Both the position numbers and the translations under genes were made by a program. Shown piece after piece: positions 5,856-42,100 of a DNA stretch of 48,644 nt; positions within the stretch are counted from its first letter, which is position 1, and each line of letters starts with the position of its first letter. The DNA comes from a virus, in IMG/VR virus record IMGVR_UViG_3300008952_000086, positions 1 to 48,644 of that record, one strand, 5' to 3'. Under the pieces are notes generated by a model. That model was not told where the DNA came from. It did no database searches and was given only the letters and a program-made list of their open reading frames with translations.

Positions 5856-7145
5856 CTACCAGCTAGTCAGGAAGTTCACACCGCCGCCCATGTCGGGGTC
5901 GATGTCCAGAGCGCCCAACTCCGAGTGGCTGTTCGGAGCGTTGGTGCCCATGTTCCCAATCCACTTGAAGTAGCCCCACAGCGGGTCGGTCCGACCCGTC
6001 CGACGGAAGCCCGAGCCGTCCTCGTCCGCGATGCGGAACGGCACCAAGTCCAGGCGGAAGATATTGGCCTTCGACTGGAAGTAGATGGTGCGAGCCGGGT
6101 GGAAGTCGAACCCGAGGAACTGCAACTCACGCGAGCCCGTAAAGAACTCGAAGTGACCGAAGCCCGCCGGGTACAACGTGCCGCCCATCTTGGGCATGAA
6201 CCGACGGTCGTCCTTGAGCAGCTTCGACAGGTGGGCAGCAATGGACGTGTGGGTCGTCGCAAAGTCGAGGTCCCCAGGGGAGCGCATCGACTGACGAGCC
6301 ACGTGGTCCATCAGCAAGTCCTCGGTCAAAGGCCGAACCACGCCACCGTTGGTGTCCAGATAACCCTGGGTGATAGTGGTCACCGTACGGTCAACGTTCT
6401 GGAAGGTGGCAGGGCTGTTGGTGCCGTCGTCGATGATGGCACGCAACCCGGTCATGCTCTGGTTGTACGTCCCCGTCTGGACAATCCAGTCGTTGGCGAC
6501 AACAGCAGCACCACCAACACCCTGGACAGTGATGCGGTTCCGGTTGACATGAGCAGTCACCGGGAGGTTCGCACCACCGGCCCGAACGGCGCCGTTGGCA
6601 GGGTTGATGAAGTCGACACGGAGCCCCACAGGGAGGTCCCACGCCCCGATGCTCTGGTAGTCCAGGGCGGCCGGGGTGAGGTCAACATCGTTTCCACCGA
6701 GAAGCCCACCGGCCCCGACCGTCCCAAGGACGCCGCGAACAGTGCCGAGAACAGCCTTGTCGAGCCGCAGCTTCGCAGACTCGGTTGCGTTCTCGAAGGT
6801 CTCCCGGGCCGCCGAAGCAAAGCTCACATCATCACCGGCCTCCGAGGCATACAGCGCACGGGTGGTCAGAGCGAAGGGGCTAGCCAGGTCAACCACGTCC
6901 ACCTGGAACTCGGTGTACGTCGGCTCGTCCTCGACCGGAATCGTGTCGGTCTCCAAGTTGAGGAACTGCGCCGCATAACCACGAGAGGTGTGGATGGGGA
7001 CTCGGAAATACTTACCGCCAGCGTCATACCGAGCGGAGGGGTTCTCCAGGTAGGCGGTGTAGGCAAGCGATTGACGCCGAACCAGAGACACAGCCGCAGG
7101 GGCAAGGTTCTCGTTCAGCAGGTTCTGCATTTGAGCAAAGTTCAT
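5856..7145 (-). CDS. Major capsid protein (HK97-fold expected)
   Basis: A 429-residue protein immediately downstream of the scaffold gene, very close in size to the P22 coat protein (430). The N-terminal arm is helical (FAQMQNLLNENLAPAAVSLV). A beta-rich 'E-loop'-like region follows at about 45-85, then a spine-helix-like segment (ASAARETFENATESAKLRLDK). The end (DMGGGVNFLTSW) is a Gly-rich beta strand. The ATG at 7145 is preferred over TTG at 7151 because GGAGAA lies at the right distance. The call rests on gene order and overall layout. Confidence 0.8.
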   Translation of the reverse strand: MNFAQMQNLLNENLAPAAVSLVRRQSLAYTAYLENPSARYDAGGKYFRVPIHTSRGYAAQFLNLETDTIPVEDEPTYTEFQVDVVDLASPFALTTRALYASEAGDDVSFASAARETFENATESAKLRLDKAVLGTVRGVLGTVGAGGLLGGNDVDLTPAALDYQSIGAWDLPVGLRVDFINPANGAVRAGGANLPVTAHVNRNRITVQGVGGAAVVANDWIVQTGTYNQSMTGLRAIIDDGTNSPATFQNVDRTVTTITQGYLDTNGGVVRPLTEDLLMDHVARQSMRSPGDLDFATTHTSIAAHLSKLLKDDRRFMPKMGGTLYPAGFGHFEFFTGSRELQFLGFDFHPARTIYFQSKANIFRLDLVPFRIADEDGSGFRRTGRTDPLWGYFKWIGNMGTNAPNSHSELGALDIDPDMGGGVNFLTSW

Positions 7146-7178
7146 GACCAATTCTCCACGCTATTGAGGCACGTACCG

Positions 7179-8096: not shown

Positions 8097-10253
8097 CTAG
8101 GTAGGACCACCTTGACCCCGAGGATTCAGGGCCTTGGAAAGTCCAGCTTCCACTCCACCCCCGCCAGCCGCCGCCGGTCCAGCTTGAGTGGCTGGGCCGC
8201 GACCTCCAGGCGATGGTTGTCCTTCTGCGTTCATAACCTCGTCCACCTCTCCCTGCAACCTTTGCACTACCATGTCCCAACGATCCAGTATTTTGCGCTG
8301 GATCATTGGTGGTAGAGACAGGTAGCGAGCAGAGTTGATGAACTTCCTGTAAACCTTGTGAACAACCTCCACGTTGGCTGCGGGGTTGATCAACAGAGGC
8401 TGACCATCCGGGGATGGACCGTAGTGGGGCATGCCACCCCTTACGATCATTTCGATCTCCCTTCTGGTGTTTCGTCTAACCGTCATCTCTTCCTCAAATG
8501 CAGAGGAAGTGCTGCCCATCTTGAGCAATCGTCTAAACTCATGGACGTCAGGACGGCCAAACTCGTCAACAAGAGCGCCAGACGCCCACATGTTCATCAC
8601 AAACTCAATACGGGCCGGCTCCGACACACTCATTGCGCTCATGTCTCGAATCTGGATGTCAGCGTACTCCATCGACTCCATCGGGATCATAGTCTTGGAC
8701 ATCATCGCTTCGGATCCGATGATGGAGAACGTCCTGGGTGCAAACCCAAACATCCTCTCGCAGAACGCTATGCCCTGGAAAACCTCTGACATCCTCCTTG
8801 CGTATGACCGCTCAAGCCTCTGGTGAGACAGGAGGTTTGCTTGGATGTTGGCGAATGCAAGCCGTCCAGACCGGCCCCCTGGCGGGTTCTGACCCTGCAG
8901 TGCCTCATGAATTGCAGCGATGTCCTGCATTTCGCTTTTGATTGCAGCCTGCTTGTGGGATAGCTGACCGCTGACCTCCGGAGTGGCAGTCCAGTGAGGC
9001 ATGGCACCGCCAGTCTCACGGATGTCCACATTTACAATCTCACCGGGGTCTGTCCTGATGTGCCCCTCGCCCTTTCTCTCCCTGCGCGGCCAGATGAACT
9101 TCGGGACAGAGTAGACAAGGGCATCATGCTCCTTGCCTGCCAGCCGGTTGTACGCCATCTGCTGTGGGATCAGGTGCGGGATCATGCCCTGTGGCAGGAA
9201 CCTCCCCAGCACAGGGTAGCAAGCGAATGGAACGTATGGGATCTGTCCGTTGTAGGGGTTGTCGTACCTCTCAAGTACGTACCCCTGGCACACCTTCACA
9301 ACTTTACCGTTGGGGTGCTTCTCTCGCTCCTTCTCGTCGAGGGCAGACCAAGGTGTCCACTCCTCGTAGACAAGGGCAACCTGCTCGCTATCGTCAGCGT
9401 TTCCAGCACCAAGACCAGACGAGAACATCAACTCTCTAATGTGGTTGCTTTCAAGCGTCCGGTCGGGCTTGATCTTGCCCTTGTACTTTGGATAGGCGGC
9501 TTCGATGGCCTTGATTGGGTAGAGGTTCTGCTCAATCAAATAGCGAGGCTTGAACACGCCACGCTCGGTGAGCCGCATGGATGCAATATCGACAATGATA
9601 TTGAACGGGGAGACACACCTGGCATACGGGGCACCAGTAAACCCGTCGATCGTCTGCGGGATCCCGTCTACAACAGCAGGACGCCTGGTCCTGAACCCTT
9701 CCTTGTCTGTGTATGTCTCAAAGACGTGTTGTCGTAGCCTGTCCCCAGCGTGCTGATCCCAGCCCCAGCGTATCCACCCCAACCCGGTGATGAGGCTCCA
9801 CCTGTAGACCTCCTCTCGGACGTCCGCGATCTTCGCCATCCTATAGTCGTGCTTGAGCACAACCTTGGTGTTCTCTGCACGTTCCCAAGCCTCGAAACTG
9901 CCAGAAATTGGGATAACGTCTGGCTCCGAATCCTCCCGCAGAAGGACAGAAAGCATCTGCTCAACAAAGCGAATAAGGAAGTTCGCCCGGTGAAAGGACC
10001 TTCTCGGCAGTGCAGGTTCTGGGCGAAGCCGCTGCAGCTTCTGCGACCAGTACACGTTTGTTCTTCCAGAGACGTAGTGGATTGCCTCCATCCAGGAACC
10101 TTGGTGGTCCCTGGTTAGAGTTTGCCACTGTCGAGCACGGCGGCTGATCCGCTGCACATCATCCCTGTCCTTCTTGCTTGCTCCGGTCTTTGGGCCGGTT
10201 GGACTAGGCGTCCCTTTCAAGTCCTCGACGTATGGTCGGTCGACTTGAGGCAT
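8097..10253 (-). CDS. Portal protein (P22 gp1-like)
   Basis: A 718-residue protein of the size of P22 portal (725). The N-terminal third includes a helical segment with aromatic residues (SWMEAIHYVSGRTNVYWSQK), then RANFLIRFVEQMLSVLL, typical of P22-type portals. The Gly/Pro-rich C-terminal 50 residues look disordered. The dodecameric portal is the DNA entry and exit ring and binds terminase and the adaptor. I chose ATG at 10253 because it overlaps the upstream stop as TAATG; a longer reading to 10286 is possible. Confidence 0.8.
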   Translation of the reverse strand: MPQVDRPYVEDLKGTPSPTGPKTGASKKDRDDVQRISRRARQWQTLTRDHQGSWMEAIHYVSGRTNVYWSQKLQRLRPEPALPRRSFHRANFLIRFVEQMLSVLLREDSEPDVIPISGSFEAWERAENTKVVLKHDYRMAKIADVREEVYRWSLITGLGWIRWGWDQHAGDRLRQHVFETYTDKEGFRTRRPAVVDGIPQTIDGFTGAPYARCVSPFNIIVDIASMRLTERGVFKPRYLIEQNLYPIKAIEAAYPKYKGKIKPDRTLESNHIRELMFSSGLGAGNADDSEQVALVYEEWTPWSALDEKEREKHPNGKVVKVCQGYVLERYDNPYNGQIPYVPFACYPVLGRFLPQGMIPHLIPQQMAYNRLAGKEHDALVYSVPKFIWPRRERKGEGHIRTDPGEIVNVDIRETGGAMPHWTATPEVSGQLSHKQAAIKSEMQDIAAIHEALQGQNPPGGRSGRLAFANIQANLLSHQRLERSYARRMSEVFQGIAFCERMFGFAPRTFSIIGSEAMMSKTMIPMESMEYADIQIRDMSAMSVSEPARIEFVMNMWASGALVDEFGRPDVHEFRRLLKMGSTSSAFEEEMTVRRNTRREIEMIVRGGMPHYGPSPDGQPLLINPAANVEVVHKVYRKFINSARYLSLPPMIQRKILDRWDMVVQRLQGEVDEVMNAEGQPSPGGRGPATQAGPAAAGGGGVEAGLSKALNPRGQGGPT

Positions 10254-10654
10254 TAGTTCAGAGCGGACTGCATCTGATTCTGCCACATGACAACGTGGTC
10301 ATCGTTGTCCGGATCGAAGCCCCTTCGCCTCATCATGGCAAACGTCGCCTGGCGAGTGTTCCCAGAGAAGTACGCGATTGTATCCTCAATCTCGTCTACG
10401 CCCGGAACCGGAGAGATATCAAGCTCGTTGTCCCAATTTACCGGCTCAACGTGCTCCTGCACCTCCGGAAGAAGCCTCTCGTGGACAGCCTGCGGCATTT
10501 CCCTGGTGTACATCTGCACACAGCGCATCGCAGTGTCGCACAACAGTTCAATATCTTCGGCAAGCATCTTTCGCTCGCGCAGAAGCCTCCACTCGCGAAC
10601 GAGCAGAAACGCAGCCAGCAATGATGCCGCCGTCGCAAAGACGGCGAAGGACAC
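10253..10654 (-). CDS. Small membrane-anchored protein between terminase and portal (133 aa)
   Basis: The N-terminal 20 residues (SFAVFATAASLLAAFLLV) form one membrane helix. Charged, helical and then acidic segments follow, with a C-terminal globular part. The GTG start at 10654 lies just after the stop of the preceding 57-residue gene. The function is unknown. Its position suggests a packaging- or morphogenesis-linked protein acting at the inner membrane. Confidence 0.55.
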   Translation of the reverse strand: MSFAVFATAASLLAAFLLVREWRLLRERKMLAEDIELLCDTAMRCVQMYTREMPQAVHERLLPEVQEHVEPVNWDNELDISPVPGVDEIEDTIAYFSGNTRQATFAMMRRRGFDPDNDDHVVMWQNQMQSALN

Positions 10655-10656
10655 TA

Positions 10657-10830
10657 CTAGATGCCCTTCTTGTACTTCGCAGCGCGGTCGGGCTTGGAAG
10701 CGCCAGCCTTGACGCTAGTCAGCGAACCACCGCTGCCAAGAACCTTTCGCGTGTAGGAATCACGCGTGCTCACGTTCTTCCGTGGGGTACCGCTCTTGCT
10801 TCGACCACTCTTGGAACCGTTGAGTGCCAT
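10657..10830 (-). CDS. Small basic Ser/Lys/Gly-rich protein (57 aa)
   Basis: A 57-codon gene whose ATG overlaps the terminase stop (TGATG). The product is rich in Ser, Lys, Gly and Thr (for example SKSGRSKSG-like stretches) with a basic C-terminus, and is probably disordered. It is the third small basic protein of the virion block. Coupling on both sides supports it; the function is unknown. Confidence 0.6.
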   Translation of the reverse strand: MALNGSKSGRSKSGTPRKNVSTRDSYTRKVLGSGGSLTSVKAGASKPDRAAKYKKGI

Positions 10831-12872
10831 CAGTGCCTCCAGGCTTGTTTATCCGCGATCTTATACGGATCCAGGGCCTTTCGCCCCTCATACATTTGGG
10901 AGCCTATGAGACGGTTCAGCATTTCGTCAACCTCCCTCTCCCTCTCACCCTCTGCCTCGGCGGCAAGAGTCTCCATAGCGTCCATTTCAATGTACGCCAG
11001 AATCATGCAGCCATCTACAAGGTCGTCGTACAGCTTGTTTCTCATACGAATGGCGCTATCCCTTGGCTTGATACCCCTGGGAGCGCCCTCGTAGTCAATG
11101 GTTCCGTCTGCTCTATTCACAACGACGTACTGCTGGATCTGGTCCAGTGTTCGCTTGTCGTGAAAAAGCCAACGCTGCTTGGCTATCACCCTTGCTAGAG
11201 CTTGCCTCGCCTTTGGCTTGTTTATCTTCGTAAGAAGAAACCCGTACTTGTTCTCCATCAGGTTCAGAACCTTGTCTGCATTCTGACGGATGTAGACCAT
11301 AGCCCCGCAGCCAAGAAGCCTGGACGAGACGTACTTCTGCTCCTTGTTGTCTGGAACGTGGAGTACACGCTTTCCTGTGATCGACTCGTAGTACCGACCA
11401 AGAAGGTAAGCCTGGTCCACGTACTCGTGCAGCGGTCTCTTGCACTCGATTACAGCGACCTGCTCTGGCCTTGAATTCTCCTTGAACGCGAAGAACTGGC
11501 TAGCCTGCATATCGCTGTCCGGATACCCGTCAGAAGCGTCGTGGATAGCAACCACATCAACACCCTCCTCCGGGAGCGTGTATATCTTCACGTCTCCGTC
11601 TGGAAGGTGAAGAACCTTTGGAACCGGCTCTGTTGCCTTCCACATATCAGCGTTGTTCGACATGGGGTCCTCCATGACCCCCTGAATCATTGGATCCCTA
11701 ACGTACGCTCTTGCAGCAGCGATACCAGCAGGATCAAACACTGTTACGCCAGATGATCTAAACGCAACCTCTGGGCACCACGGGTACTGATTGTCGAATA
11801 CGTCAGGGCTACCCTCGCAGTAGTTCGGAATCATCCACCGACGCCAGGCTAGCTGCCCGGCAGTCATGTCGTGACCGTATCTCTCACTGCAGCCCTCGAT
11901 CATTTTGGACTCTCTATCGTCCAGATCGTCCATGACCTGCTTTTCGCTCAACCCGACCCAACGGTCAGTGTCATCAAAGCAGTAGGTTGGTTCCTCCCAG
12001 AAACCTACAAATAGGGGCGTGTAGGCTGATTCACCACGCTCTGACAGCTTCCATGTGTCGTAGAACCACCCCTGCTCGCCCTCTGCCGTCGACTCAAGAA
12101 CCTGAACAGTATTCGGGTTGATGTGTGGCTGCGGCATCGCCTGATTGAGGTTCGAGAACAGGGTTGTGGCGTTACGCCAACCGCTTCTAGCCACCTCAGA
12201 CCCGTGGAATCCTGTGACCGTATAACCAGCGCCAGCGTCGGTGTCTCTCGCAGTGTCGATGCTGATGATGCTGCCAAGTCCAGGCTCTCGCATACGCATC
12301 TTCCCTGACGGGTTCTGAAACGAAAGCTCGTTTCTGTTGTCCTGTCTGGTCATCGGACGCATCCATTCAGGCAGGAACGTGTGAAACGTCTGGTACATGC
12401 GAAGAAGCTCTGCAGCGTTCTTGTCGGAGTGACCAACCACCAGGATTCTTTCGTACAGCTTTGATGCAGCGATGGCGTAGAGTATCGCCGCTGTCATGGT
12501 AGATGCGCCCTGCTGGCGTGCCTTGAGCAGGATGATCCACATGGGGTCCCCCTGCGAGCGCAGCTTCTTGAGAAGCGCATACAGCCTATTCTGCAGCGTT
12601 TTCCACTGGTTTAGCTGAACCGGACGCCTACCAAACTGCTCGTCAGCCTCCTTGGGCCGAATCCACAGGAGCGTCTTTACATACGTCTCAACAGACGTGA
12701 GACATTTCGCCTGAATCACATCCCTTCGGATACGACCCTGGTCGTCGTGGTGCTTTAGGAGTCGCAGCCGTTTCAGGTGCTCCGGATCCTTTTGGAACTG
12801 ACGGATGGCGTGCTCGATACCTAGGTTGACGTTGTAGGTCTCGTGCGGGCTGGGCTGTTCTAGGAGGTCCAC
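10830..12872 (-). CDS. Terminase large subunit
   Basis: A 680-residue packaging ATPase/nuclease. The N-terminal ATPase has the adenine-binding area and a Walker A-like LKARQQGAST at about 116-125, with Arg/Gln replacing part of the classic P-loop as in many terminases. A Walker B-like VQVLESTAEG follows with the catalytic Glu near 260. The RNase H-like nuclease half has candidate acidic residues in AIHDASDGY (Asp 445) and YDDLVDG near 620. It pumps DNA into the procapsid through the portal and cuts concatemers. It starts at GTG 12872 without a clear ribosome site. Confidence 0.9.
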   Translation of the reverse strand: MDLLEQPSPHETYNVNLGIEHAIRQFQKDPEHLKRLRLLKHHDDQGRIRRDVIQAKCLTSVETYVKTLLWIRPKEADEQFGRRPVQLNQWKTLQNRLYALLKKLRSQGDPMWIILLKARQQGASTMTAAILYAIAASKLYERILVVGHSDKNAAELLRMYQTFHTFLPEWMRPMTRQDNRNELSFQNPSGKMRMREPGLGSIISIDTARDTDAGAGYTVTGFHGSEVARSGWRNATTLFSNLNQAMPQPHINPNTVQVLESTAEGEQGWFYDTWKLSERGESAYTPLFVGFWEEPTYCFDDTDRWVGLSEKQVMDDLDDRESKMIEGCSERYGHDMTAGQLAWRRWMIPNYCEGSPDVFDNQYPWCPEVAFRSSGVTVFDPAGIAAARAYVRDPMIQGVMEDPMSNNADMWKATEPVPKVLHLPDGDVKIYTLPEEGVDVVAIHDASDGYPDSDMQASQFFAFKENSRPEQVAVIECKRPLHEYVDQAYLLGRYYESITGKRVLHVPDNKEQKYVSSRLLGCGAMVYIRQNADKVLNLMENKYGFLLTKINKPKARQALARVIAKQRWLFHDKRTLDQIQQYVVVNRADGTIDYEGAPRGIKPRDSAIRMRNKLYDDLVDGCMILAYIEMDAMETLAAEAEGEREREVDEMLNRLIGSQMYEGRKALDPYKIADKQAWRH

Positions 12873-13902: not shown

Positions 13903-14661
13903 CTACAGGGCTTGGCCGGGACGATATCGGAACATCACGAAATACGAGGTCTGACCATCAAAGTCGTCGTCGGTGTGAAAATTCAACGAGCACTCGCCGT
14001 TCGCGTTGATCTGGTCGACCTGATAAGTGGCCCCGGATCCAGCAGCGCCATTGTTGGCAGCAAGCGTCGCGTTGAAGCAGACGGTGGTTGCGATGTCGTT
14101 GTCCAGGTGCGTGACCGACAGGATGTGGTCGATACGCGCAGCGCCCGTAACCTCAATGCTCGGGTCGCAGGGACCAAACACCAAGTGCAGGGTTGCCCCC
14201 ATAGCCAACTGGTCAGCACCCTCGGCAATCACGCCATCGGCACCCTCGACAACAACCTGATCGATCCGCCGGTACGCGTTCACGGTGTCGCCAGTCAGGG
14301 ACCCAGCAGCGAAGTTGATGACCTCGGTAATGGGATCACCGAACGCGTTAGATCCAGAAATGGTGATGGTTCCAACAGCATCAGCGCCTGCGGCGTCCGT
14401 GTACGTCCAGGTGTACCGACGCGGAGTTCCCGCCGGGACCTGATTGTTCATGCCAGTGCAGGTGATTCGCCGGTTGCCAGAGACCAACTCGTCTGTTCGA
14501 GCGGTTCCAAGGGCGTTCAGGTTTGCAGCCGTCAACAGGGCGGACGTCGCCGGTGCGTCGGTGGAAACCCAAGTCGAGATACCGTAGGTCTCCCGGCACG
14601 CTCGGGCGTTGGAAAGGTCAGGAAGCCCGAGTTCTCGTCCAGCAGTTCGTCCAGCAGCCAT
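13903..14661 (-). CDS. Probable virion structural protein (252 aa)
   Basis: The first gene of the virion block. The product is Ala/Thr/Gly/Asn-rich with regular beta segments (YTWTYTDAAGADAVGTITIS; TYQVDQINANGECSLNFHTD). This is typical of phage head or tail surface proteins with an immunoglobulin-like or jelly-roll fold. The ATG at 14661 has GGGGA in front; an upstream in-frame ATG at 14691 lacks one. Its promoter must lie between here and the oppositely oriented regulator at 14736. Confidence 0.55.
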   Translation of the reverse strand: MAAGRTAGRELGLPDLSNARACRETYGISTWVSTDAPATSALLTAANLNALGTARTDELVSGNRRITCTGMNNQVPAGTPRRYTWTYTDAAGADAVGTITISGSNAFGDPITEVINFAAGSLTGDTVNAYRRIDQVVVEGADGVIAEGADQLAMGATLHLVFGPCDPSIEVTGAARIDHILSVTHLDNDIATTVCFNATLAANNGAAGSGATYQVDQINANGECSLNFHTDDDFDGQTSYFVMFRYRPGQAL

Positions 14662-14699
14662 GATATTCCCCGTGGGTGATTGCGCGAACAAGCTCCCAC

Positions 14700-14727
14700 T
14701 GGACCATACGTGTCGTCAAGCTATAGT
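14700..14727 (+). promoter_or_regulatory. Promoter of a probable leaderless regulator gene
   Basis: TGGACC at 14700-14705 and TATAGT at 14722-14727 are spaced by 16 bases and match the sigma-70 consensus at 4/6 and 5/6 positions. The GTG of the HTH gene begins 9 bases after the -10 box, so transcription should start at or beside the start codon. Confidence 0.5.
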
Positions 14728-16611: not shown

Positions 16612-17207
16612 GGCGATGCGATCCGAAGGAGAAGGTGCGTGTGTACCGGGTTGGTTCCGTCGCAGTCGGTTTCCTGCACGCATTCGTGCTGAACTATGTA
16701 GTGCATTCCATCCTCATCGCACTTGAAAACCGCTGGCATGTAAGATCGTAGAACCTGCGGAAGGACGGTGCAGATTACCTCCTCGTTCACCTGAAAAGTA
16801 ACCCTCGTCCCAACACGAAAGCTCTTTGGCCGCCCTGCCACCGGGTTTGGCCTTTTCATGGCTGGCGGGGCGTTCATCAGGAGCAGCTTTGCCCCCTTTG
16901 GGGTCCTCAGGTAGCCGCCTTTTGGGTATTTAGCAGCCAGCCCCTTGCGAACCATGTGGTCAAGTGCCGCCCCCAGAGCGTCGGTCTCTCTCCTGTGGTG
17001 CTTTGGCTTCCTATTCGCCCACATGCCCCTGAAAAGCTCGTACTTGGTCTGCGGAACCATCGAATCAAGGACCCACAGGATGTACCTGTGCGGTAGGCAG
17101 AGGTTGTGCCTGTTTTTTACAAGCTCCGTCCCAACATCAAGGCAAGCGCAACAGGATCCATCAGACAAACCGATCAAAAAACCAGGCGTCTTGATCATGT
17201 CGTCCAT
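16608..17207 (-). CDS. Unknown Cys-containing protein in replication/methylase module (199 aa)
   Basis: A basic protein with an N-terminal CCACLDVG segment near residue 18 and LCLPHRYILWVLDSM after it. It then has a winged-helix-like middle (ETDALGAALDHMVRKGLAAKYP followed by a wing-like hairpin) and a beta-rich C-terminus with more cysteines. The ATG at 17207 overlaps the stop of the preceding gene (TGATG). It may bind DNA. No confident family is recognised. Confidence 0.55.
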   Translation of the reverse strand: MDDMIKTPGFLIGLSDGSCCACLDVGTELVKNRHNLCLPHRYILWVLDSMVPQTKYELFRGMWANRKPKHHRRETDALGAALDHMVRKGLAAKYPKGGYLRTPKGAKLLLMNAPPAMKRPNPVAGRPKSFRVGTRVTFQVNEEVICTVLPQVLRSYMPAVFKCDEDGMHYIVQHECVQETDCDGTNPVHTHLLLRIASP

Positions 17208-17701
17208 CAAATCGCCTTGTTTACCTTCACTTCCTGGTTTTGACGCTTCTGCTCTGGCGACACAGCTTCAAGCCACGTGTCCATGTGTCCCCTCTCGCAT
17301 GGATCACAAAGGGCACCCTGCCAGACGTCCACCCTAACTGAATACATCGACTCTGGACCTTTGTCCCACTTGTCAGCGATGCGGTAGAGTCGCCTTGCAG
17401 CGGCCTCCCTTGTCTCGCTGTACCCAGGCATCGCAACGCTGACAACGCCGTTTTTTTTCACTATCGGCGGATCCCTGGTGAATGGCTTACCATCATCCCA
17501 CTCGATAGACGGGTGTGGCCCTCGCCAGTGTGTTCCAACCCTGCAGGCTGGGCACCACGCCTTTTCCTTCGGCTCCCCATCGTCCATCTTCCTGTAGGTC
17601 ATGCAGCGTTTGTCTATCTCCCCGCTCATGGCCGACCTAACAGCCCCCTCCATCATTCTCTTCACTATCTTGTCGAGCCTAGAGAAGTTCGCCTTGACCA
17701 T
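17207..17701 (-). CDS. Unknown Zn-type protein in replication module (164 aa)
   Basis: ATG at 17701 is chosen because AGGAGAG stands at good spacing; the longer reading to 17752 would overlap the upstream gene more. The product has a helical N-terminus (FSRLDKIVKRMMEGAVRSAM) and a cysteine pair WCPAC near the middle. A second pair (LCDPC) near the C-terminus could complete a zinc site. Neighbours are the replication organiser and another cysteine protein. The function is unknown. Confidence 0.6.
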   Translation of the reverse strand: MVKANFSRLDKIVKRMMEGAVRSAMSGEIDKRCMTYRKMDDGEPKEKAWCPACRVGTHWRGPHPSIEWDDGKPFTRDPPIVKKNGVVSVAMPGYSETREAAARRLYRIADKWDKGPESMYSVRVDVWQGALCDPCERGHMDTWLEAVSPEQKRQNQEVKVNKAI

Positions 17702-23465: not shown

Positions 23466-24131
23466 ATGTTGAACGAAGGAACGCGAGAGCGGCTGCGAGA
23501 GATCGCGGCCAAGGCCAAGGCCAGAGCGGCTGACATCGAGCGCGACCGCGACGGGGCCCGGTCCGAGCGGTTGCGAGAGGTCGCGGCCAAGGACAGGGCT
23601 GAGTTGCGTGAGGAGAAGCGCGACCGCGACGAGGCCGACCTGAAAAGGCGGTACCAGAACCTGGCGGCCCAGCACTACGATATGGAGGTCGAGTTGCGTG
23701 GCATGCTGCGCGAGCGCGACGAGGCCCGCGTGGCCTTGGGGGAAGTGAGGCGAACGCGTGACACCGCGCTGGCCGACCTGGCCAAGGTGCGGCGGGTGTT
23801 CCGCGAGTGTCGGGACTCCCACGTGCGGTCCTCAGCGCGGGCCGACGAGGGTTGGGCCGAGCGGGTCTCGGCAGTGGAGGCCGAGCGCGACGAGGCCCGC
23901 GCCGAGTTGGCCCTGGTCATGGAGGAGCGGGACGAGTTCGAGGACCTGTACCAGGGGACCTTCGACGGTTGGTGCGCGGACCGCGACCGGCTGCGCGCCG
24001 AGCGCGACGCGGCCCGGGGTGAGGCGAAGGTGCTCAGCCAGGCGGTCAGCAGGATCCAGGCGAACCTGCAGTGGGTCGACGAGTGCAAGAAGCAGTGGGC
24101 CGCGGACCGCAAGCTGAACGGGGGTTCCTGA
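23466..24131 (+). CDS. Long coiled-coil protein (221 aa)
   Basis: GGGAGGAG precedes the ATG. Nearly the whole product is a highly charged helix of repeated Arg-Asp-Glu-Ala patterns (AERDEARAELALVMEERDE-like repeats) with heptad spacing, so it should form a coiled coil or a long rod. No catalytic motif is seen. It lies between the structured noncoding region and the FliS-like gene and is coupled to the next gene (TGATG). Very high GC and strong Arg/Glu/Asp bias mark it. Confidence 0.65.
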   Translation: MLNEGTRERLREIAAKAKARAADIERDRDGARSERLREVAAKDRAELREEKRDRDEADLKRRYQNLAAQHYDMEVELRGMLRERDEARVALGEVRRTRDTALADLAKVRRVFRECRDSHVRSSARADEGWAERVSAVEAERDEARAELALVMEERDEFEDLYQGTFDGWCADRDRLRAERDAARGEAKVLSQAVSRIQANLQWVDECKKQWAADRKLNGGS

Positions 24132-24478
24132 TGAGCTTCCCGCGGACAACAACCTGCGAGAGACGACTCTACTGGTCTAGCGATCTCCCCCCGCAAGGGT
24201 GGGCCATAGCCAGCTTCGCCAGGATGGTCGAGGTGTTCGGGTTCCCCGATGGCGGTGGAGACAAGTCGGACGTCGAGTGGACGGTGGACCTGGACGACGA
24301 GACCACTGTCGTTTTGTACAACTACAGGCCCGACTGCGGTTATGGGCTGCGGGATCTGCTGTCCAACCCGGACGAGAGGCGGACTTGGCGCGTTTGTGGT
24401 TCGATCTGGACGGACGCGAACAGGGTGAACGTTCTCGTTGATCCATTGCTCGACCTGCCGGAAGGGGGTGACGAGTAG
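24131..24478 (+). CDS. Unknown protein (115 aa)
   Basis: The ATG overlaps the stop of the coiled-coil gene. The product has several tryptophans, a Gly-rich turn (FPDGGGDKSDVEW) and beta strands (TTVVLYNYRPD), then a helix and an acidic end. No family was recognised. A structured hairpin follows it before the FliS-like gene. Confidence 0.55.
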   Translation: MSFPRTTTCERRLYWSSDLPPQGWAIASFARMVEVFGFPDGGGDKSDVEWTVDLDDETTVVLYNYRPDCGYGLRDLLSNPDERRTWRVCGSIWTDANRVNVLVDPLLDLPEGGDE

Positions 24479-24531: not shown

Positions 24532-24556
24532 AGTAACGAGCACTGGGAGGTGCAAC

Positions 24557-24958
24557 GTGATTGAGACGAGGAAGATGATCGCCGAACCCGTGAAGCGGTT
24601 TGAGGACATGAACCCCCGCGAGCGGCTGGGGCTGCTGTTTGACAGTGCCATCCGGTTTGCCGAGCGCGGCAAGCGGGCCGCCGGTGTCAACGACAAGGCC
24701 GGCTCTGCGATGTACATCGGCAAGTCGCAGGCTATCGTCCAGGAGTTGCAGAACGTCCTGCGACACCAGGCCGCCCCCGAACTCTGCGGCGCCCTGTCCG
24801 CACTGTACACCTACATCATCGATGTGTTGACCGTTGCGAACCTGCAGCACGACGGCACTCCCGAGGATATCGCCAACGTGGTGAACAGGGTCGACGAGGC
24901 TATCGACCTGCTCAAGACGGTCCGCACTGGCTTCGGGCCTCTGGCTGGTGACGAGTGA
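24557..24958 (+). CDS. FliS-like flagellin export chaperone homologue
   Basis: GTG start with GGGAGG at 24545-24550, 6 bases upstream. The 133-residue product has the size and pattern of FliS, the chaperone that binds the C-terminal helices of flagellin before export. 'RLGLLFDSAIRFAERGKRAA' at 23-42 matches FliS helix 1. 'KSQAIVQELQNVL' at 56-68 and 'CGALSALYTYIIDVLTVAN' at 77-95 match the conserved I-x-EL, L-x-x-LY-x-Y and L-x-x-AN signature. A final helix follows. I know of no standard role for FliS in phages. It may act on host flagellin or have been reused as a four-helix bundle. The match was made by eye. Confidence 0.65.
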   Translation: MIETRKMIAEPVKRFEDMNPRERLGLLFDSAIRFAERGKRAAGVNDKAGSAMYIGKSQAIVQELQNVLRHQAAPELCGALSALYTYIIDVLTVANLQHDGTPEDIANVVNRVDEAIDLLKTVRTGFGPLAGDE

Positions 24959-24960
24959 GC

Positions 24961-25521
24961 ATGTTCAACTACTACATCCCGCCACCGTCCCTGAACTGGG
25001 ACAAGGTCCGCAAGGACTTCGACGAGGCCCACAACCAGTGGTGTAGCGGCCTGACCGCCTACCATGCGTTGATGCGGCACATAGCCGCTGGCGCCGCGCT
25101 GGACGGTCATGGGTACGAGGAGGTCGTTGCGCTTGCCGAGAGGGGCATGGAGACGGCCCGCAGACTGCTCGAACAGCAGAATGCTATCTCGGACGACCTG
25201 TACTCCATGCAGAGCGAAATGCCCGACGTGGACGACGTTGAGTGCGAGGTCGTTGTTGGTGGTCCCCCACCCCCGCCAGTGTTCACCACCGGCACCCCTG
25301 TCATCCAGGTCAACGGGGACGAGGCCCGCAAGGAAATGGCAGGGTTTGACCCGTTGCCAGAGTGCATCTACCCCAGCGAGGAGGCGCGGGTCGCCCTTTG
25401 GGACCAGTTGGAACGCTCGTCGGTAACTACCACCCACGACAGAACCCGCACGTGGGGTATCAGCGGAGTGAGCATCGAACCCTGCAAGAACAGCATGATC
25501 GAGGAGGACGAGAATGAGTAG
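24961..25521 (+). CDS. Helical protein with a GTPVIQ motif (186 aa)
   Basis: Starts 2 bases after the FliS-like stop (ATG 24961; GTG 24955 is also possible). Residues 1-95 are helical (FDEAHNQWCSGLTAYHALMR; GMETARRLLEQQN). A Pro-rich stretch then leads to 'PPPPPVFTTGTPVIQVNG' and 'FDPLP'. The same PxF-x2-GTPVIQ ... FD-x-LP block is near the N-terminus of the DUF932-type protein 2 kb downstream. It may form a unit with FliS. The function is unknown. Confidence 0.6.
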   Translation: MFNYYIPPPSLNWDKVRKDFDEAHNQWCSGLTAYHALMRHIAAGAALDGHGYEEVVALAERGMETARRLLEQQNAISDDLYSMQSEMPDVDDVECEVVVGGPPPPPVFTTGTPVIQVNGDEARKEMAGFDPLPECIYPSEEARVALWDQLERSSVTTTHDRTRTWGISGVSIEPCKNSMIEEDENE

Positions 25522-27132: not shown

Positions 27133-27163
27133 GTAACCTTGACATCATCGGGAGGTGATACAG

Positions 27164-28498
27164 ATGCGAGTGAACGAAGATAGCAGGGTTCGTATCGAAT
27201 CCGACGAGAAGGCGGCTATTGCTGCGGGTTTTGCGCCCAAGCCGCCGCTGTTCGCTGCTGGTACTCCGGTCATCCAGCTTGGCAACGACAACTTCCAGAG
27301 GTCCCGCCAGGACTTTGATGCCCTTCCGGGTGTCGACGAGGCGTTTGGCGAGGCCGAGGCTGTCGTGGAGCGTGAGGATCGCGGGGACCTGCACGTTCCC
27401 TACAACGTGATGAACTTCACCGACGAGGCCAAGCTCCGCATCGGAGGTCACGACTTCGCCTTTGAGAAGCACGCCTGCGACCAGTTGTCGCACAACCTGG
27501 GCCCGCAGGGCTCTCACTCTGCCGTCTATCTCCGGTCGGTGGACGCGAAGATGCGGGCCTGGAACTGGCGCGAGTTGAACCAGCGCCGGTCCGAGCGTGA
27601 GGACAAGGACAACCCGCGCACCGCGCGGTTGCGCCTCCGTAAGCGCGACGCCAATGCCCCCGGGCACCAGATTTTCGGCGTGGTGTCCGACAGGTACACG
27701 CCTTTCGAGGCTGGGGACCTCGCGAAGATGCTGCGCAAGAAGCTGCCCTCGGACGCCAAGGGCGAGGTGATGTACGACGGTCAGAAGTGGGCCATGAGCG
27801 CGATGTGGCACGCTCCGGAGGACCTTGAGGGGCTTGCCGCTGGCGACTTCTTCAAGGCCGGCATCCGGTTCAAGACCGCCGATGATGGAACGTGTGCGGT
27901 GAAGGCCGAGGCCGTGCTCTGGCGGAACCTCTGCCTGAACCTGATCATCATTGACGAGGCCCTGGTCAAGTTGGGCAGCACCAGCCACAAGGGCGACATT
28001 GTGGACACCGTCATGGCCATCGAGCGCATGATCCACAAGGGGAAGGCGGCTGTCGGTCACTTCCGCGACAAGTGGGTCAAGGCCGAGGCGGACAACATGC
28101 TCAAGGGCTTGAACCCCGCCGATGCCATCGGTCGGTTGGTTCACCGTGGCTTCGTCCACGTCCCTGGTGTCCGGAAGGACGTCGTCGGTGCCCGGGTCCT
28201 GAGCGCCTACCACGAGGAGCCCGGCTACGGCATCACGTCCGTTGTCAACGCCATCACCCGGGCCGCGCACACCAACGCTTGGTCCAAGACCTGGGCCACT
28301 GACAGCCTGGAACGGCAGGCGTCGGTCTACCTGTACGGTGCCACCGATGGGAAGCCCAAGTACAGGCTCGACGTGCAGAACGAGAAGGACACCGACGAAC
28401 AGGACTTCGTCTACAACTTCGTCAAGAACGTGAACACGTCCAGCACCACCACGCTGGCGGCACCCACCAAGAAGAACGGCGGATTGCTGGAGTTCTAA
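27164..28498 (+). CDS. DUF932-type protein of phage/plasmid origin
   Basis: Starts at ATG 27164, with GGGAGG upstream. The 444-residue protein has the layout of DUF932 family members: a block 'VVSDRYTPFEAGDLAKML' around residue 185, a conserved Arg/Cys block (CAVKAEAVLWRNLCLNL) around 245, and helices with GK/HK motifs. The family is widespread in phages and plasmids; its biochemical role is unknown. Near the N-terminus, 'GTPVIQLGNDN...FDALP' repeats a motif of the protein at 24961-25521. It probably acts early in infection. Confidence 0.75.
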   Translation: MRVNEDSRVRIESDEKAAIAAGFAPKPPLFAAGTPVIQLGNDNFQRSRQDFDALPGVDEAFGEAEAVVEREDRGDLHVPYNVMNFTDEAKLRIGGHDFAFEKHACDQLSHNLGPQGSHSAVYLRSVDAKMRAWNWRELNQRRSEREDKDNPRTARLRLRKRDANAPGHQIFGVVSDRYTPFEAGDLAKMLRKKLPSDAKGEVMYDGQKWAMSAMWHAPEDLEGLAAGDFFKAGIRFKTADDGTCAVKAEAVLWRNLCLNLIIIDEALVKLGSTSHKGDIVDTVMAIERMIHKGKAAVGHFRDKWVKAEADNMLKGLNPADAIGRLVHRGFVHVPGVRKDVVGARVLSAYHEEPGYGITSVVNAITRAAHTNAWSKTWATDSLERQASVYLYGATDGKPKYRLDVQNEKDTDEQDFVYNFVKNVNTSSTTTLAAPTKKNGGLLEF

Positions 28499-28577: not shown

Positions 28578-28590
28578 CTTGGAGGTGCCA

Positions 28591-29046
28591 GTGCCGTACA
28601 AGCATGTGACGTACAAGATACCTGCGCTTTGGCGACTGGTTAGGCGTGACAGGTTGGACCCCGAGTGCTCCCCGCTGGAGGGGGCCCCGGAGCGACCGGC
28701 CAGCCGTGCTGACTGTAAGGACGCCGAGCGACCATGCCCGTGGGTGGGGTGCCGCTACCACCTGTGGGCCGACTTCAAGCCAAGCGGGACAGTTGTCGTC
28801 TTGAAGGACGTGGAGCCGTGGGACATGCCTGCGGAGTCAAGCTGCGCCTTGGACGTTGCCGACCGGGTGGACTCTCACGGGTTTCCGACGAGGGGTCCGG
28901 ACGCTCTGGCCGTCTACGAGCATGTGGCAAACATTCTTGGGGTGTCGAGGCAGCGAGTTCAGCAGAGGGTCGAGGAGGCCCTGGACTCGTACTTCGTAGC
29001 CCTTTCTGAAAACGAGCGCTTTGGCGCTAAACCGGGAGGAGACTGA
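28591..29046 (+). CDS. Sigma-region-4-like helix-turn-helix regulator (151 aa)
   Basis: Starts at GTG 28591, where GGAGG lies 7 bases upstream. It contains CPWVGCRYHL (49-58) and CALDVADR (85-92), followed by 'YEHVANILGVSRQRVQQRVEEALD' at 109-132, the region 4.2 helix-turn-helix of sigma factors. A group of bacterial proteins shares this exact order (CPW-x-x-CRYHL, then CALDVA, then sigma-like HTH). They lack the core sigma domains and are thought to bind DNA. It may redirect host polymerase at phage promoters. Confidence 0.65.
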   Translation: MPYKHVTYKIPALWRLVRRDRLDPECSPLEGAPERPASRADCKDAERPCPWVGCRYHLWADFKPSGTVVVLKDVEPWDMPAESSCALDVADRVDSHGFPTRGPDALAVYEHVANILGVSRQRVQQRVEEALDSYFVALSENERFGAKPGGD

Positions 29047-32641: not shown

Positions 32642-33829
32642 ATGGCCCCAGGCAAAAAACACGCAAGAGTCAGCCCGTCTGCCATCCGGGACTACTCCGA
32701 GTGCGCTCACCGCTACTGGTTGTTGCGTGTGCAGAAGCACAAGGCGGATCCCAACCCGGCGTTCGACGTCGGCCGGGCGGTGCATGTGTTCCTTGAGCGG
32801 TATTCGGAGCACATCATAGGGCGGGGTGTGTCTCGTGACGCCAGTGTGGGGAAAGGTATCGCCGGGGAGTGTATGTCCAACCTTGGGCCAGACACCGCCA
32901 CCGAGACCAGCCTCATCATCAACGGGCTTCTTGAGCGCAGGGACCTGTTCCCAGAGTCCGCTTACGACAACCCCACATTCTCTGTGGAGCGCAGGCTGTC
33001 GCTGGACAGGGACGGATGCGAGGTTCCCTGGGACAGCAAGAAGGCAATGTGGAGGGGCATTGTCGACGCCATATGGTCGGAAGACGACGGCAAGACAGTT
33101 GTCATCCGGGACTGGAAAACGAACAGGAGGCCGAAGTCTAGGGAGGGCGTAGTCAACGACTCCCAGCTTGCACAGTACGCGTGGGCTGTTATGCAGCTTG
33201 ACGAGTTCAGGGATGCAACCAGCGTCTCCGCGTACCTTTACTACGTCCGGTATGGAGCGGAGGTTGGTGTGCTCTGGCCTCGCAAGGCGATAGAGCAGAC
33301 GCGTCAGACCATCGACATCATGTCCAGGCGCATAGCGTCAGAGCGGGATTGGGCCCCAAACATTGGTGGTGCCTGCGCGACGTGCCTCGTTCAGAAGCAC
33401 TGTGAAGCGTTCAAGGGGGCCCTGGTTCGCGAGGACCCGTTCGATGTCATCAGTCAGGACAGCGCAGAGGAGGCTGCTCGTTTGTACGCGGCAATGGGAA
33501 CGGCGAGGAACGTACTCGGGGGGAAGCTGCGCTCTTGGATAGATGAGCGTGGTGGTCTCCCCGTTGGCGATGACAAGGTTCTCGATGTGTGGGTCAGCGA
33601 GAGAAGCGAGCTTACCGACGTGGCTGGCGTGGTCGCTGTTCTTGACGAGAAGTACGGGGTGGACAGGGACGCACTTTGGTCGTCCTTGAAGCTCTCCAAG
33701 AGGGACGTGACCACCCTCCTAAAGAGGACGGGGATAGCCAGTAAGAAGGCGAAGAAGATCACAGAGGAACTGTTCGACGAGTTTGGAATACGCCGCATGA
33801 GACCAGTGATGGAGGTCAAGAAGATATGA
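32642..33829 (+). CDS. RecB/Cas4-like nuclease with Fe-S-type cysteines
   Basis: A 395-residue PD-(D/E)XK nuclease. The N-terminus has 'SPSAIRDYSECAHRYWLLRV' with Cys 21. The catalytic His is in VGRAVHVF (near 48), Asp in GIVDAIW (near 142) and the DWKT core near 156. Q-x-A-x-Y follows. 'CATCLVQKHC' (near 243-252) plus Cys 21 could bind a 4Fe-4S cluster, as in Cas4 and AddB. It probably resects DNA ends to load the annealing protein. The C-terminal 100 residues form an extra domain. Confidence 0.8.
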   Translation: MAPGKKHARVSPSAIRDYSECAHRYWLLRVQKHKADPNPAFDVGRAVHVFLERYSEHIIGRGVSRDASVGKGIAGECMSNLGPDTATETSLIINGLLERRDLFPESAYDNPTFSVERRLSLDRDGCEVPWDSKKAMWRGIVDAIWSEDDGKTVVIRDWKTNRRPKSREGVVNDSQLAQYAWAVMQLDEFRDATSVSAYLYYVRYGAEVGVLWPRKAIEQTRQTIDIMSRRIASERDWAPNIGGACATCLVQKHCEAFKGALVREDPFDVISQDSAEEAARLYAAMGTARNVLGGKLRSWIDERGGLPVGDDKVLDVWVSERSELTDVAGVVAVLDEKYGVDRDALWSSLKLSKRDVTTLLKRTGIASKKAKKITEELFDEFGIRRMRPVMEVKKI

Positions 33830-36200: not shown

Positions 36201-36495
36201 TGCTTGGACCGTTGACTGTTAGAATCCTGCAACGCTTACAGGACAGGGCAGCAGCGTGACGCAGGTGATTGGCCATTGGGTCCTCCTGCAGGTCAAACAG
36301 ACACGAGCACACAGTGTCGCGTCGCTCAACAGCCTGAATGGCAACCCACTCCATCTCGTTAGCCACTTCCTCTGCGCGCATGGCAGCAGCTACAGCCTCG
36401 TTGCGCTCCTCGTTGGCAACGACAGCCTCAATGGAAAGGTGGGTAACGCTGCCAAGCATGGCCAGCATAACCAGAGCGGCAAGAGCCTCACTCAC
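36193..36495 (-). CDS. Small membrane protein with Cys cluster (100 aa)
   Basis: I start it at GTG 36495, overlapping the endolysin stop as GTGA; the longer reading to 36528 is not needed. One N-terminal membrane helix (ALAALVMLAMLGSVTHLS) leads to a helical body and a C-terminal cluster (CSCLFDLQ ... SCKRCR). It may be a spanin-like or holin-like component. Confidence 0.5.
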   Translation of the reverse strand: MSEALAALVMLAMLGSVTHLSIEAVVANEERNEAVAAAMRAEEVANEMEWVAIQAVERRDTVCSCLFDLQEDPMANHLRHAAALSCKRCRILTVNGPSNE

Positions 36496-37007
36496 GCCAG
36501 GGCCAGTTTGCGTGCGCCCCCATTCCACCTAGCACGCTTGCCTCGGCAGTCAACATGCACAAAGCGCACTGTGCCGTCCTTGCGAAGGTACAGTGCTAAC
36601 CCTCCCTTTGGAATGCGACCGTCCTCCTGCATGGCGTTGGCACAGTCGAAAATCTGGAGAGTGCGCTGCTCCGTCGAGGCTCGAAGGTCCAACGCAACGC
36701 CTAGCATGTGCTTGCTGCCCGTGCCCGGGACGATCACGCCGTCCTTGTATTTGGGCTGCGCCCCGCCCACACGCCGGTTCATAGCAGGAGAACGCACACC
36801 ACCACCGGCAAGCACAGTCAGCCCGAAGCCCAACTCGTCACGCAAAGGCTGGAACATTTGGATAGCCATGCGCTCCACGTTCGCAGCCACGTCGTCAGGC
36901 AACGAGGCAACGTCGTCGTACCCGCTGCCGCGCAACACCTCCGACCATGTTAGGTTGGGGGCCAGCGACTCCACACGCAGCGGAGGCATCTGGATCACCT
37001 CACTCAT
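36492..37007 (-). CDS. Endolysin, M15-family peptidase
   Basis: A 171-residue enzyme of the peptidase M15 group (D-Ala-D-Ala carboxypeptidase / L-Ala-D-Glu endopeptidase). 'RSPAMNRRVGG' (near 80-90) is followed by 'SKHMLGVALDL' with the zinc His and Asp, and 'VHVD' near 158 with the second His. It should cleave peptide stems of the cell wall at lysis. ATG 37007 overlaps the previous stop (ATGA). A cluster of membrane proteins follows, as expected for holin and spanin partners. Confidence 0.8.
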   Translation of the reverse strand: MSEVIQMPPLRVESLAPNLTWSEVLRGSGYDDVASLPDDVAANVERMAIQMFQPLRDELGFGLTVLAGGGVRSPAMNRRVGGAQPKYKDGVIVPGTGSKHMLGVALDLRASTEQRTLQIFDCANAMQEDGRIPKGGLALYLRKDGTVRFVHVDCRGKRARWNGGARKLALA

Positions 37008-37159
37008 CCGTCGTCGGCTGGCGGAATGTTGAGCATGACGCGCCAACCGGCCTCGACGGCATCGCCAAACGCCTCCTTGACGGGCAGTCGCATCGTCTCC
37101 TCGCTGGATCCAGTGACGACGACGATCTCGACGTAGAGGACAGAAGTCTCGTCAGCCAT
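37004..37159 (-). CDS. Small unknown protein before the endolysin (51 aa)
   Basis: ATG 37159 overlaps the preceding stop (TAATG). Beta strand start (SVLYVEIVVVTGSSEE), then helical and acidic end. It may be a fibre chaperone or minor virion protein. No family is recognised. Confidence 0.5.
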   Translation of the reverse strand: MADETSVLYVEIVVVTGSSEETMRLPVKEAFGDAVEAGWRVMLNIPPADDG

Positions 37160-38764: not shown

Positions 38765-39118
38765 TCACACCGCCAACCATGTTACACCGTCTCCTGCAAC
38801 AGCAGCGTCGATGTATATTAGATTGGCGTTGCCTATCCATAGCTCAAGCGTGGATGCGGCGTCTAGGATATACCCGTTAGCCGAAGAAACGGTCGAGCCA
38901 CCTACGTATATGTTGCCGGCATTGCCGACATTGGCCCTGATCATGATTCTCTGGCACCGAACGCCAGTGGACAGCGCAACCCTTGTCCCTGCGACTGCTA
39001 CAGCCGTGGCCCCACTGGTGGGGTTGATCGCCGGGGAGTTGAGCCGGGTTCGGTCGACGCCAATGCTTCTTCGCCAAACGATGTCATCTCGCTCAACGTC
39101 TGCATCGGGGGTCGGCAC
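38765..39118 (-). CDS. Small beta-sandwich-like virion protein (117 aa)
   Basis: GTG start overlaps the giant gene's stop (TAGTG). The C-terminal 70 residues have 'GNIYVGGSTVSSANG' and 'STLELWIGNANLIYIDAA', a pattern seen in small phage decoration or fibre-linked proteins. Probably a virion surface component. Confidence 0.5.
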   Translation of the reverse strand: MPTPDADVERDDIVWRRSIGVDRTRLNSPAINPTSGATAVAVAGTRVALSTGVRCQRIMIRANVGNAGNIYVGGSTVSSANGYILDAASTLELWIGNANLIYIDAAVAGDGVTWLAV

Positions 39119-42100
39119 TACTCCTCCTGCTCCTCAAGGTTGGTCTCTGCTGGGACTGAATTAGGAGCGGCATCGTCTAGTCCAAGGCGAATCTTCCTCT
39201 GAACCCTAGCCCAGTCCCTCAGGAACACAGACTTCTGATACATCGGATCATACTCATAAGCCTTGAAGGGCGTGACAGCACCCATGACTCTGGAGCGTTG
39301 GGCACGTTGCTTCGGCGTGAGATCCATCAGGTTGCCCAAGAAGAAGTTTCCAAGACCTACGCCACCAGGAATGGTGTTTAGGTAGTAGGCAGGCGGTAGC
39401 GCCGACAGAGAGCGGAGCGTGGATTCGTTCATACGCCACACCCACTGTGTTTTCCCGTCGTCTGGGTCCCCTATGGAGATTTCCTCACGGCGAAGCCCCA
39501 TCATAGCTCGGAATCCCTGGTCCTTGCCGTTCTTGTCCTTGCCTGACCACGCGAGGTGCTGGTCAATGAGCATAATCCACGCGGGGGCCTCTGTTCGCCT
39601 GTCGTAAAGTGGGCGTCCCTTGAAGAAGCTATAGGCATGGCCGCTGCTGTCTAGCTTCTCCTCGAACGGCCACTTGTACCAGGGGTATAGGGACCCAAGA
39701 AGCTCGTCGGAAAGAACCCTGGTGGTAGAACGACCGCCAGCCTCTTCCGGTATAAACATACGAAGGGCGTTCAGGTCCTCGCCCGGAAGTCCGAAGCGAA
39801 ACAATGCCAACGACTTCTTTCCTCTGTCCTCCTTGCCTACGGTGAGCCCCCACATATTGCTCCACCATTCAGGCATCCAAACCTCATCAACCTCGTCTCC
39901 AGAGCCAAGTGCCTCCACGTATGTTTGTAGTTGGTGCATACGGTAGAACTTGTTGGGACGGTTGATCATTGCATCAATCTGCAGCCCGATGTTCTTACGC
40001 TTCCATGTGCTGAACGGTGTGACGTAATCACGCATAAAACGCAGGGTTGGAGTCAGGTCGTCGTAGTCGAAGTGGATCTTGATAACTCGCTCGATAGACT
40101 CCTGGATGCCCATGCCTTTGTTGACTCGACCATCAATGTAGGCGGCAGTACGAAGCCAGTCCTCGATCACCGAACCAACTTCGCGCCCGACCTTGACCGG
40201 AGCGAACTGACGGGACAGCGGATTTGCCTGTTGTAAGGCGTGGAACGTCTTTCCAATTTTGGACGTAGCGCCAAACTCACGCATCAACTCATCCATAGTC
40301 CCTAGCTGCGTGTTCACGGCGTGCTCGTTCCTGCGAAGAATCCCCGCATTGTTCAGTTCTTCGCGTATCTGCCTTCTGGTGATCCCGCTGTCTCCGATAA
40401 CCTCATCAGCCCACTGCAACCCCTTCTGGGTCGCAGCAAGTGTGTCAGGGGGAGGAGGGATCACGTCTCCAGCTATCCCCTTGGTCTGGCCAGGCGTGTT
40501 GATGGTCTTGAACGCCTCCATGTAAACACGGGGATCATTGACGTTGTAGGTCCACGCATTGATGGCTGACGAGATAATGTTGCGCTCGTGAAAGCGCGGG
40601 AAGATGCCTGTGGCGAGACCCTTGAATGTTTGAGTAGCCCAGCGCAGCCCAGGAATAAGAGCAGCAAGGTCAGCGTCACTCCCCTGGAATGCAGTCTGCA
40701 TTCGGTCTAGACCTTCGGCCACCTCCTTGGGGATTAGATACTTTTCGCCCTGGAGCACGTACTCACGCTCAACACCACGAATTCCGCTTACTGCCTGGTA
40801 CAGTTCAGTGTCTGCAGCCACCTTACCAAGTGCGCCCTCGCCCTCCTTGATGGGCACCTTTGACTGCCTTCCAAACTTCTTGATTATCTTCGACTCGAAG
40901 TCGGACCAGGCCAACATGCTCTCAACTGTCGCCCGCCAGATAGTGTAGGCATACCTGGCGTCGTCTACAGGCTGTAGACCCAACTCCCGCAGGTTCTCCA
41001 CTGTCTCCCAATAGCGATGCTTGGATGCGTTCACCCCCTGCGGCATTGAGCCGCCAATGGGCCTGACCGCCATAATTAGGTCTTTCCGCTGGATGATGTG
41101 TGGGATCCATGCGGATATCTCATCCATAGTGTATCCGCCCTCATGTAGAAGGCGCAGACCGTCTGCAAACTCATCTTTGAGCCAAATGCTGAGGTCTTCC
41201 ACCGCCTTGTCAACCACGCGGACCTGTGGGTCGAACGATTGGGAGACTAGGTCAACGATGTTTCTAGAGTTGACTACAGGATTCCTGATATTGCCAAGTT
41301 GCCCCTCCGGGGCGTCGTAGTCCATTCCCTTGACAGCATCGTCCAGGATGGACTGAACCTGCGGATCAGGGTTGGATGTAGGACGATACCTTGGACGCCC
41401 GACCATTACCTCGTCGGGGATCATCTTGGCGTCGGCAAGGGACTGGATGCGTGGGTCTGGGTGACGATTGGCAACTGTATTGAAGAAGTTAGCAGTCTCC
41501 TTCGCGTTATCCGTCATGTGGGATGACGCGATGATGGCATCGACCTCCTTCGCCCGCTCGTTGCTGGCCATCCTCCATGCCTTGTAGAAGTCGACCTCCC
41601 CGTACTTCTCCATCATGGCGATGTTCTTTTCCGCCTGTTCGGACACCCTGGACATGGCCTTGCCGAGTTCAATCCTGGCCTTGTTGCTCCGCTGAACGTG
41701 AGCCAAGAACGCGTGCCCGGCAAAACGCTCAAGACCAGTGTCGCCAGGGGCAGGTAGGCGAACAAGAGACTCCGGGTCGGTGGAGGCCGCACGCTTCTTG
41801 AGTTCCTTCGACCTCTTTAGCCACTCCTGCTTGCGCCAAATCTCATCCCTGAACGGCTCGTAGTCGCTGAGCTTGCCACCTCGCTGTGCCACCTCATCCT
41901 CAAGGTGGGCGAGCCGGGCCTTGTACCACTTGTCGATCTCTCGTCCGTAGTGCCACAGCACCGAGTCCGGGACGTCATCGAACCTCCCCTGCCGCACTGC
42001 GTCGTCCACCATGTCGGGCAGGTTGGCGTACATCCTAGGGACAGGCTCCGCTCCGACAGCCTTGGATGCTGCACGCGCCGGAATGGCCGTGGGGTCTGGC

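Follow-up and report, generated by a model that had tools for sequence, protein, structure and literature searches.

A FliS homologue in a tailed-phage genome, possibly a decoy chaperone for host flagellin

The FliS-like gene and its phage surroundings

The stretch of DNA analysed here (the window, 48,644 nucleotides) is a virus contig of IMG/VR, record IMGVR_UViG_3300008952_000086, and an open reading frame for a FliS-like protein of 133 amino acids lies on its + strand at 24557..24958, from a GTG start at 24557 to a TGA stop at 24958. A Shine-Dalgarno-like box, GGGAGG (24545..24550, +), can be read in the sequence 6 nt 5' of the start codon, and at third codon positions the frame has a GC of 0.83, in line with the genes around it (0.81, 0.82 and 0.85). 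With this putative ribosome site and phage-like composition, the 133-residue frame called in the initial annotation is confirmed.

Hallmark genes of a tailed phage are present on the contig. The terminase large subunit (10830..12872, -) matches PHROG 2 with E 7e-12 and, by tblastn, phage terminases; the portal protein (8097..10286, -) matches PHROG 156 (E 6e-19), the major head protein (5856..7151, -) PHROG 14242 (E 2e-22) and an M15-type endolysin (36492..37046, -) PF08291 and PHROG 894 (E 2e-13). A PD-(D/E)XK exonuclease (32642..33829, +; PF12705, E 2e-20; PHROG 69, E 2e-25) belongs to the same + strand block as fliS, and further matches concern a DNA methyltransferase, a polymerase processivity factor and, weakly, a Holliday-junction resolvase. 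The fliS-like gene sits within this rightward block of small genes, which is flanked by two leftward structural blocks; it is part of a genuine tailed-phage genome. Upstream is an ORF at 24071..24478 (+), whose true start is probably internal and which has no family in Pfam or PHROGs. Downstream is a gene of 188 or 186 amino acids (+), also without family, which runs to 25521 either from GTG 24955, in which case it overlaps the fliS stop codon, or from ATG 24961. No flagellar gene besides fliS was found in the window, and the fliD and flagellin neighbours usual for a cellular copy are absent, with phage genes on both sides.

Some other genes of the contig deserve mention in their own right. 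The products of 24955-25521 and 27155-28498 have a segment in common, PPVFTTGTPVIQVNGDEARKEMAGFDPLPE (at 25273) and PPLFAAGTPVIQLGNDNFQRSRQDFDALPG (at 27242), which is possibly a docking motif or a duplicated piece. The 155-residue product of 28579-29046 (+), in the same block as fliS, has a weak match to sigma-70 region 4 (E 0.0013, below the cut-off) and is a possible phage transcription regulator. At 39118-47316 (-), a protein of 2732 amino acids, whose linkers are rich in Ala and Pro, has no family in Pfam and shows a weak match to PHROG 19395 near its C-terminus; perhaps it is a virion protein that is ejected.

Homology to FliS

FliS is the chaperone that brings flagellin to the export gate of the flagellum. 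The phage protein was matched to FliS by Pfam, by NCBIfam and by comparison with FliS structures in the PDB, using both sequence and fold. It scores 62.6 bits (E 5.1e-17) against PF02561, over positions 9-108 of the 115 in the profile and above the curated gathering cut-off of 26.7 bits. Against TIGR00208 it scores 50.8 bits (E 1.7e-13), narrowly under the equivalog cut-off of 53.75 bits. The closest solved structure by sequence is FliS of H. pylori, PDB 3iqc (E 3e-9). The motifs on which the initial annotation had relied are all present and in order, with L83-Y-T-Y86 and L91-x-x-A94-N95 as described, while the one given as I-x-EL has to be corrected, being strictly I-x-x-E-L (I60-V-Q-E63-L64). 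The resemblance to FliS is far beyond chance.

We also compared a predicted structure with FliS, as the initial annotation had suggested. The AlphaFold2 model, for which the input was the phage protein together with two Polyangiaceae relatives, has five helices and a mean pLDDT of 78. When it was searched against the PDB with Foldseek, FliS structures took the first 16 places (best E 1.2e-3, probability 1.00), those of H. pylori (3iqc, 3k1i and 6lea) being among the best, and designed bundles ranked behind them. With VIA-align, a DALI-like method, FliS reached Z values up to 12.9 and unrelated four-helix bundles up to 14; since generic bundles score equally high, this ranking is not taken as proof of the fold. 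In our reading it is the sequence profiles, rather than the fold alone, that prove the relationship to FliS. The identity first proposed for the protein is thus supported by the sequence profile, by the best structural matches and by the tree described below, in a contig that is a real phage.

The conserved core and the flagellin groove

Alignment and column statistics delimit a conserved core of residues 26-96 (24632..24844, +), comprising helices 2-4 and holding the positions of the flagellin groove. Here the phage protein keeps R33, K56, I60, E63, L64, L68, the APELC motif, L80, Y84, A94 and N95, and where columns are conserved in at least 80% of cellular FliS it has kept 14 of the 21 residues. 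The flagellin-groove residues have been named for H. pylori FliS (PMC7248283). Its contacts R33, R56, L64, I67 and Y84 correspond to R33, K56, L64, V67 and Y84 in the phage, whereas Tyr28, Asp69, Gly73, Tyr79 and Gln87 are replaced by Phe, Arg, Ala, Ala and Ile, respectively. A further change in the groove is that of Gly30 to Ser30; concerning Phe28 in place of Tyr28, the same change is found in 14% of cellular FliS. Judged by this alignment, helices 2-4 retain most of the flagellin-groove residues.

An altered docking segment

The counterpart of the FlhA-docking helix is the N-terminal helix, residues 2-16 (24560..24604, +), as defined by the AlphaFold2 model and by column statistics. At the position of the docking tyrosine (Tyr10 in Salmonella) stands Phe15 (24599-24601), while all 62 cellular FliS that have this column carry Tyr. 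The alignment also shows that residues 16-19, EDMN (24602..24613, +), form a shortened linker in place of the usual one ending in TAS, so that the docking aromatic and the conserved Pro are separated by 5 residues in the phage, compared with 10 in 57 of the 62 cellular proteins, 14 in four and 9 in one. A second length change, like the first unique to the phage protein, is an insertion of 9 residues at about residues 103-111 (24863..24889, +), before or in the last helix; the segment preceding this helix counts 18 residues, against 9 in 63 of 64 FliS.

The role of Tyr10 in docking has been described in several studies (PMC5932034, PMC6070490, PMC8527033). In Salmonella FliS its hydroxyl bonds Asp456 of FlhA, the residue is termed absolutely conserved, and flagellin binding has to dislodge the N-terminal helix first (PMC5932034). 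In B. subtilis, swarming suffers strongly when Tyr7 and Tyr10 are replaced by Ala or when the N-terminus is deleted; these two tyrosines sit outside the flagellin interface (PMC6070490). Among the substitutions considered here from the literature, Tyr to Phe does not occur. Because the phage protein scores under the equivalog cut-off and has Phe at the docking position, we advise against classing it as a functional equivalog of FliS; we consider it a FliS homologue whose function has probably changed. It should be noted that V12, F15 and M18 preserve a hydrophobic i, i+3, i+6 face on the docking helix, and docking may therefore be weakened rather than lost.

This retained V-x-x-F-x-x-M face bears on whether the protein could be a working accessory chaperone, which would still dock on FlhA and boost flagellin export or filament length, or, by binding FlgM, tune late flagellar transcription, so that, for example, infected cells would stay motile. 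The conserved core and the score over the Pfam cut-off agree with such a role, as does the reported suppression of FlgM secretion by FliS (PMC8527033). Against it are the replacement of an absolutely conserved Tyr, the halving of the linker and the score under the NCBI equivalog cut-off, and we regard it as rather improbable.

Rarity among phages

The initial annotation did not recognise FliS as a standard phage module, and our searches agree with this: no other phage copy was found, within scans that were not exhaustive and may have missed records very close to the window. A tblastn search of 50,697 phage records with the protein as query returned nothing, PHROGs held no FliS family matching it, and a fold search of BFVD gave no FliS. 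Scans of IMG/VR with short peptide patterns, one taken from the single sequence and two based on alignments, found no viral FliS, within the limits of such patterns, which are not exhaustive. PF02561 was found in 0 of 50 records with related terminases. Scans with the portal, DUF932, capsid and exonuclease proteins found no relatives of this phage, and the only matches were remote terminases.

The only database matches were contaminating bacterial fragments. Three INPHARED records, MT836588, MT836129 and MT837262, were matched by cellular FliS queries and were rejected as phage FliS. Their other ORFs, inspected by eye, look like flgK, flgL, fliW, flaG, fliD or flagellin; tblastn with fliD or flagellin also matches the three records, and no phage gene was seen there. 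These faecal records, labelled 'UNVERIFIED: Bacteriophage sp.', are a contamination trap for anyone searching for flagellar genes in phages.

Origin of the gene

When genomes from 84,980 species were scanned by pattern, two relatives were returned and confirmed, both in Polyangiaceae and both with the gene order flagellin-flagellin-fliD-fliS. The best FliS copies in Myxococcota genomes are 41-44% identical to the phage protein. In a tree of 65 rows the phage falls inside a group of 41 Myxococcota rows, which contains the APELC-type sequences, with an SH-aLRT of 95 and a bootstrap of 85; its branch, of length 2.54, is among the longest. The outgroup consisted of 12 rows from plasmids, the PDB and faecal contigs, and with this thin sampling outside Myxococcota the donor phylum is probable but falls short of proof. 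From these comparisons, capture of fliS from a flagellated bacterium, of Myxococcota type, appears most likely.

The phage protein and the cellular Myxococcota-type FliS of Polyangiaceae share length, motif order, helical bundle, the APELC motif and groove residues. They differ in that the phage gene is phage-borne and away from fliD and flagellin, and in that its product has Phe for the docking Tyr, a linker of 5 residues instead of 9-14, and the insertion of 9 residues. As to the host, 379 Myxococcota genomes were searched with the phage terminase, which matched in 3 of them at 30-36% identity, and the DUF932 protein has no match in 96 Myxococcota genomes; these results do not single out a host. 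Two FliS copies occur together in a few genomes of Myxococcota, located in G157 on contig C94 at 14394-14726 and 17048-17344, in G200 on C266 and C406, and in G353 on C636 and C797.

We also evaluated whether the gene could be a passenger, that is, a host gene without function for the phage, or a chimera of assembly. Our searches found no related phage that carries the gene, as would be expected of a passenger. On the other hand, the nearest cellular copy found is only 44% identical and the branch is long, the frame is unbroken, is preceded by a good ribosome site and has a composition like that of the flanking phage genes, and no flagellar gene adjoins it. We judge this explanation highly improbable.

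Possible function

Three roles had been put forward in the initial annotation, namely alteration of host motility, retention of flagellin in the cytoplasm and binding of the product of the next gene. As far as the residues can tell, the altered docking segment favours the holding of flagellin. In the mechanism that we propose, a tailed phage would have captured fliS from a flagellated bacterium and then reshaped the gene. The four-helix core would have been retained to clasp the D0 segment at the disordered C-terminus of flagellin, and the N-terminal helix would have been left without the invariant tyrosine hydroxyl and with only half of the linker that swings this helix into the FlhA cleft. 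During infection, phage FliS would take newly made flagellin in competition with host FliS, and the captured flagellin would be poorly delivered to the FlhA gate, with less filament growth and less swimming as a result. The gain for the phage could be energy saved or a filament removed during replication.

That the protein binds host flagellin and docks poorly on FlhA, and would therefore compete with host FliS and lower filament export, is a proposal to which we give a chance falling just short of even. More tentatively, it may be a full decoy chaperone, the first FliS in a phage, in which flagellin is clasped, gate docking is gone and swimming is disarmed from inside; that phage FliS would control motility is plausible.

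Alternatively, the chaperone might have been redirected to a phage client, whose disordered tail it would clasp, perhaps that of the next gene (24955/24961-25521) or of a virion protein. The two genes overlap or lie almost end to end and may be translationally coupled, the two unique length changes suggest an altered partner, and loss of gate docking would in this case carry no cost. However, a search of the window for a C-terminus resembling that of flagellin found none: a motif scan of its reading frames for the D0-C pattern gave none, and tblastn of flagellin returned only matches with E of at least 0.02, out of frame with or opposite to likely genes. Most of the flagellin-groove residues are also retained, and apart from the gene overlap nothing was found in support of binding to the next gene's product. 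A phage client thus seems unlikely to us.

Shutting down pili and binding to flagella that are already assembled are known phage strategies. Aqs1 and Tip, two proteins of Pseudomonas phages, shut down type IV pilus assembly from the cytoplasm and in this resemble the role proposed for phage FliS, host motility being switched off from within the cell; their target is the pilus motor PilB, not flagella, and they are not known to be related to FliS. FlaGrab (Gp047) of Campylobacter phage NCTC 12673 reportedly attaches from outside to glycans of the assembled flagellum and is not known to be related to FliS. An action of this phage protein on host flagella, with inhibition of growth, is reported in PMC7099621. 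No phage that enters the flagellin export pathway was found in our searches.

If flagellin is indeed trapped, the phage protein would be a natural dominant-negative FliS, in which client binding is separated from gate docking, a separation so far probed by point mutants. Were the proposal true, flagellin export would be one more host function known to be usurped by viruses.
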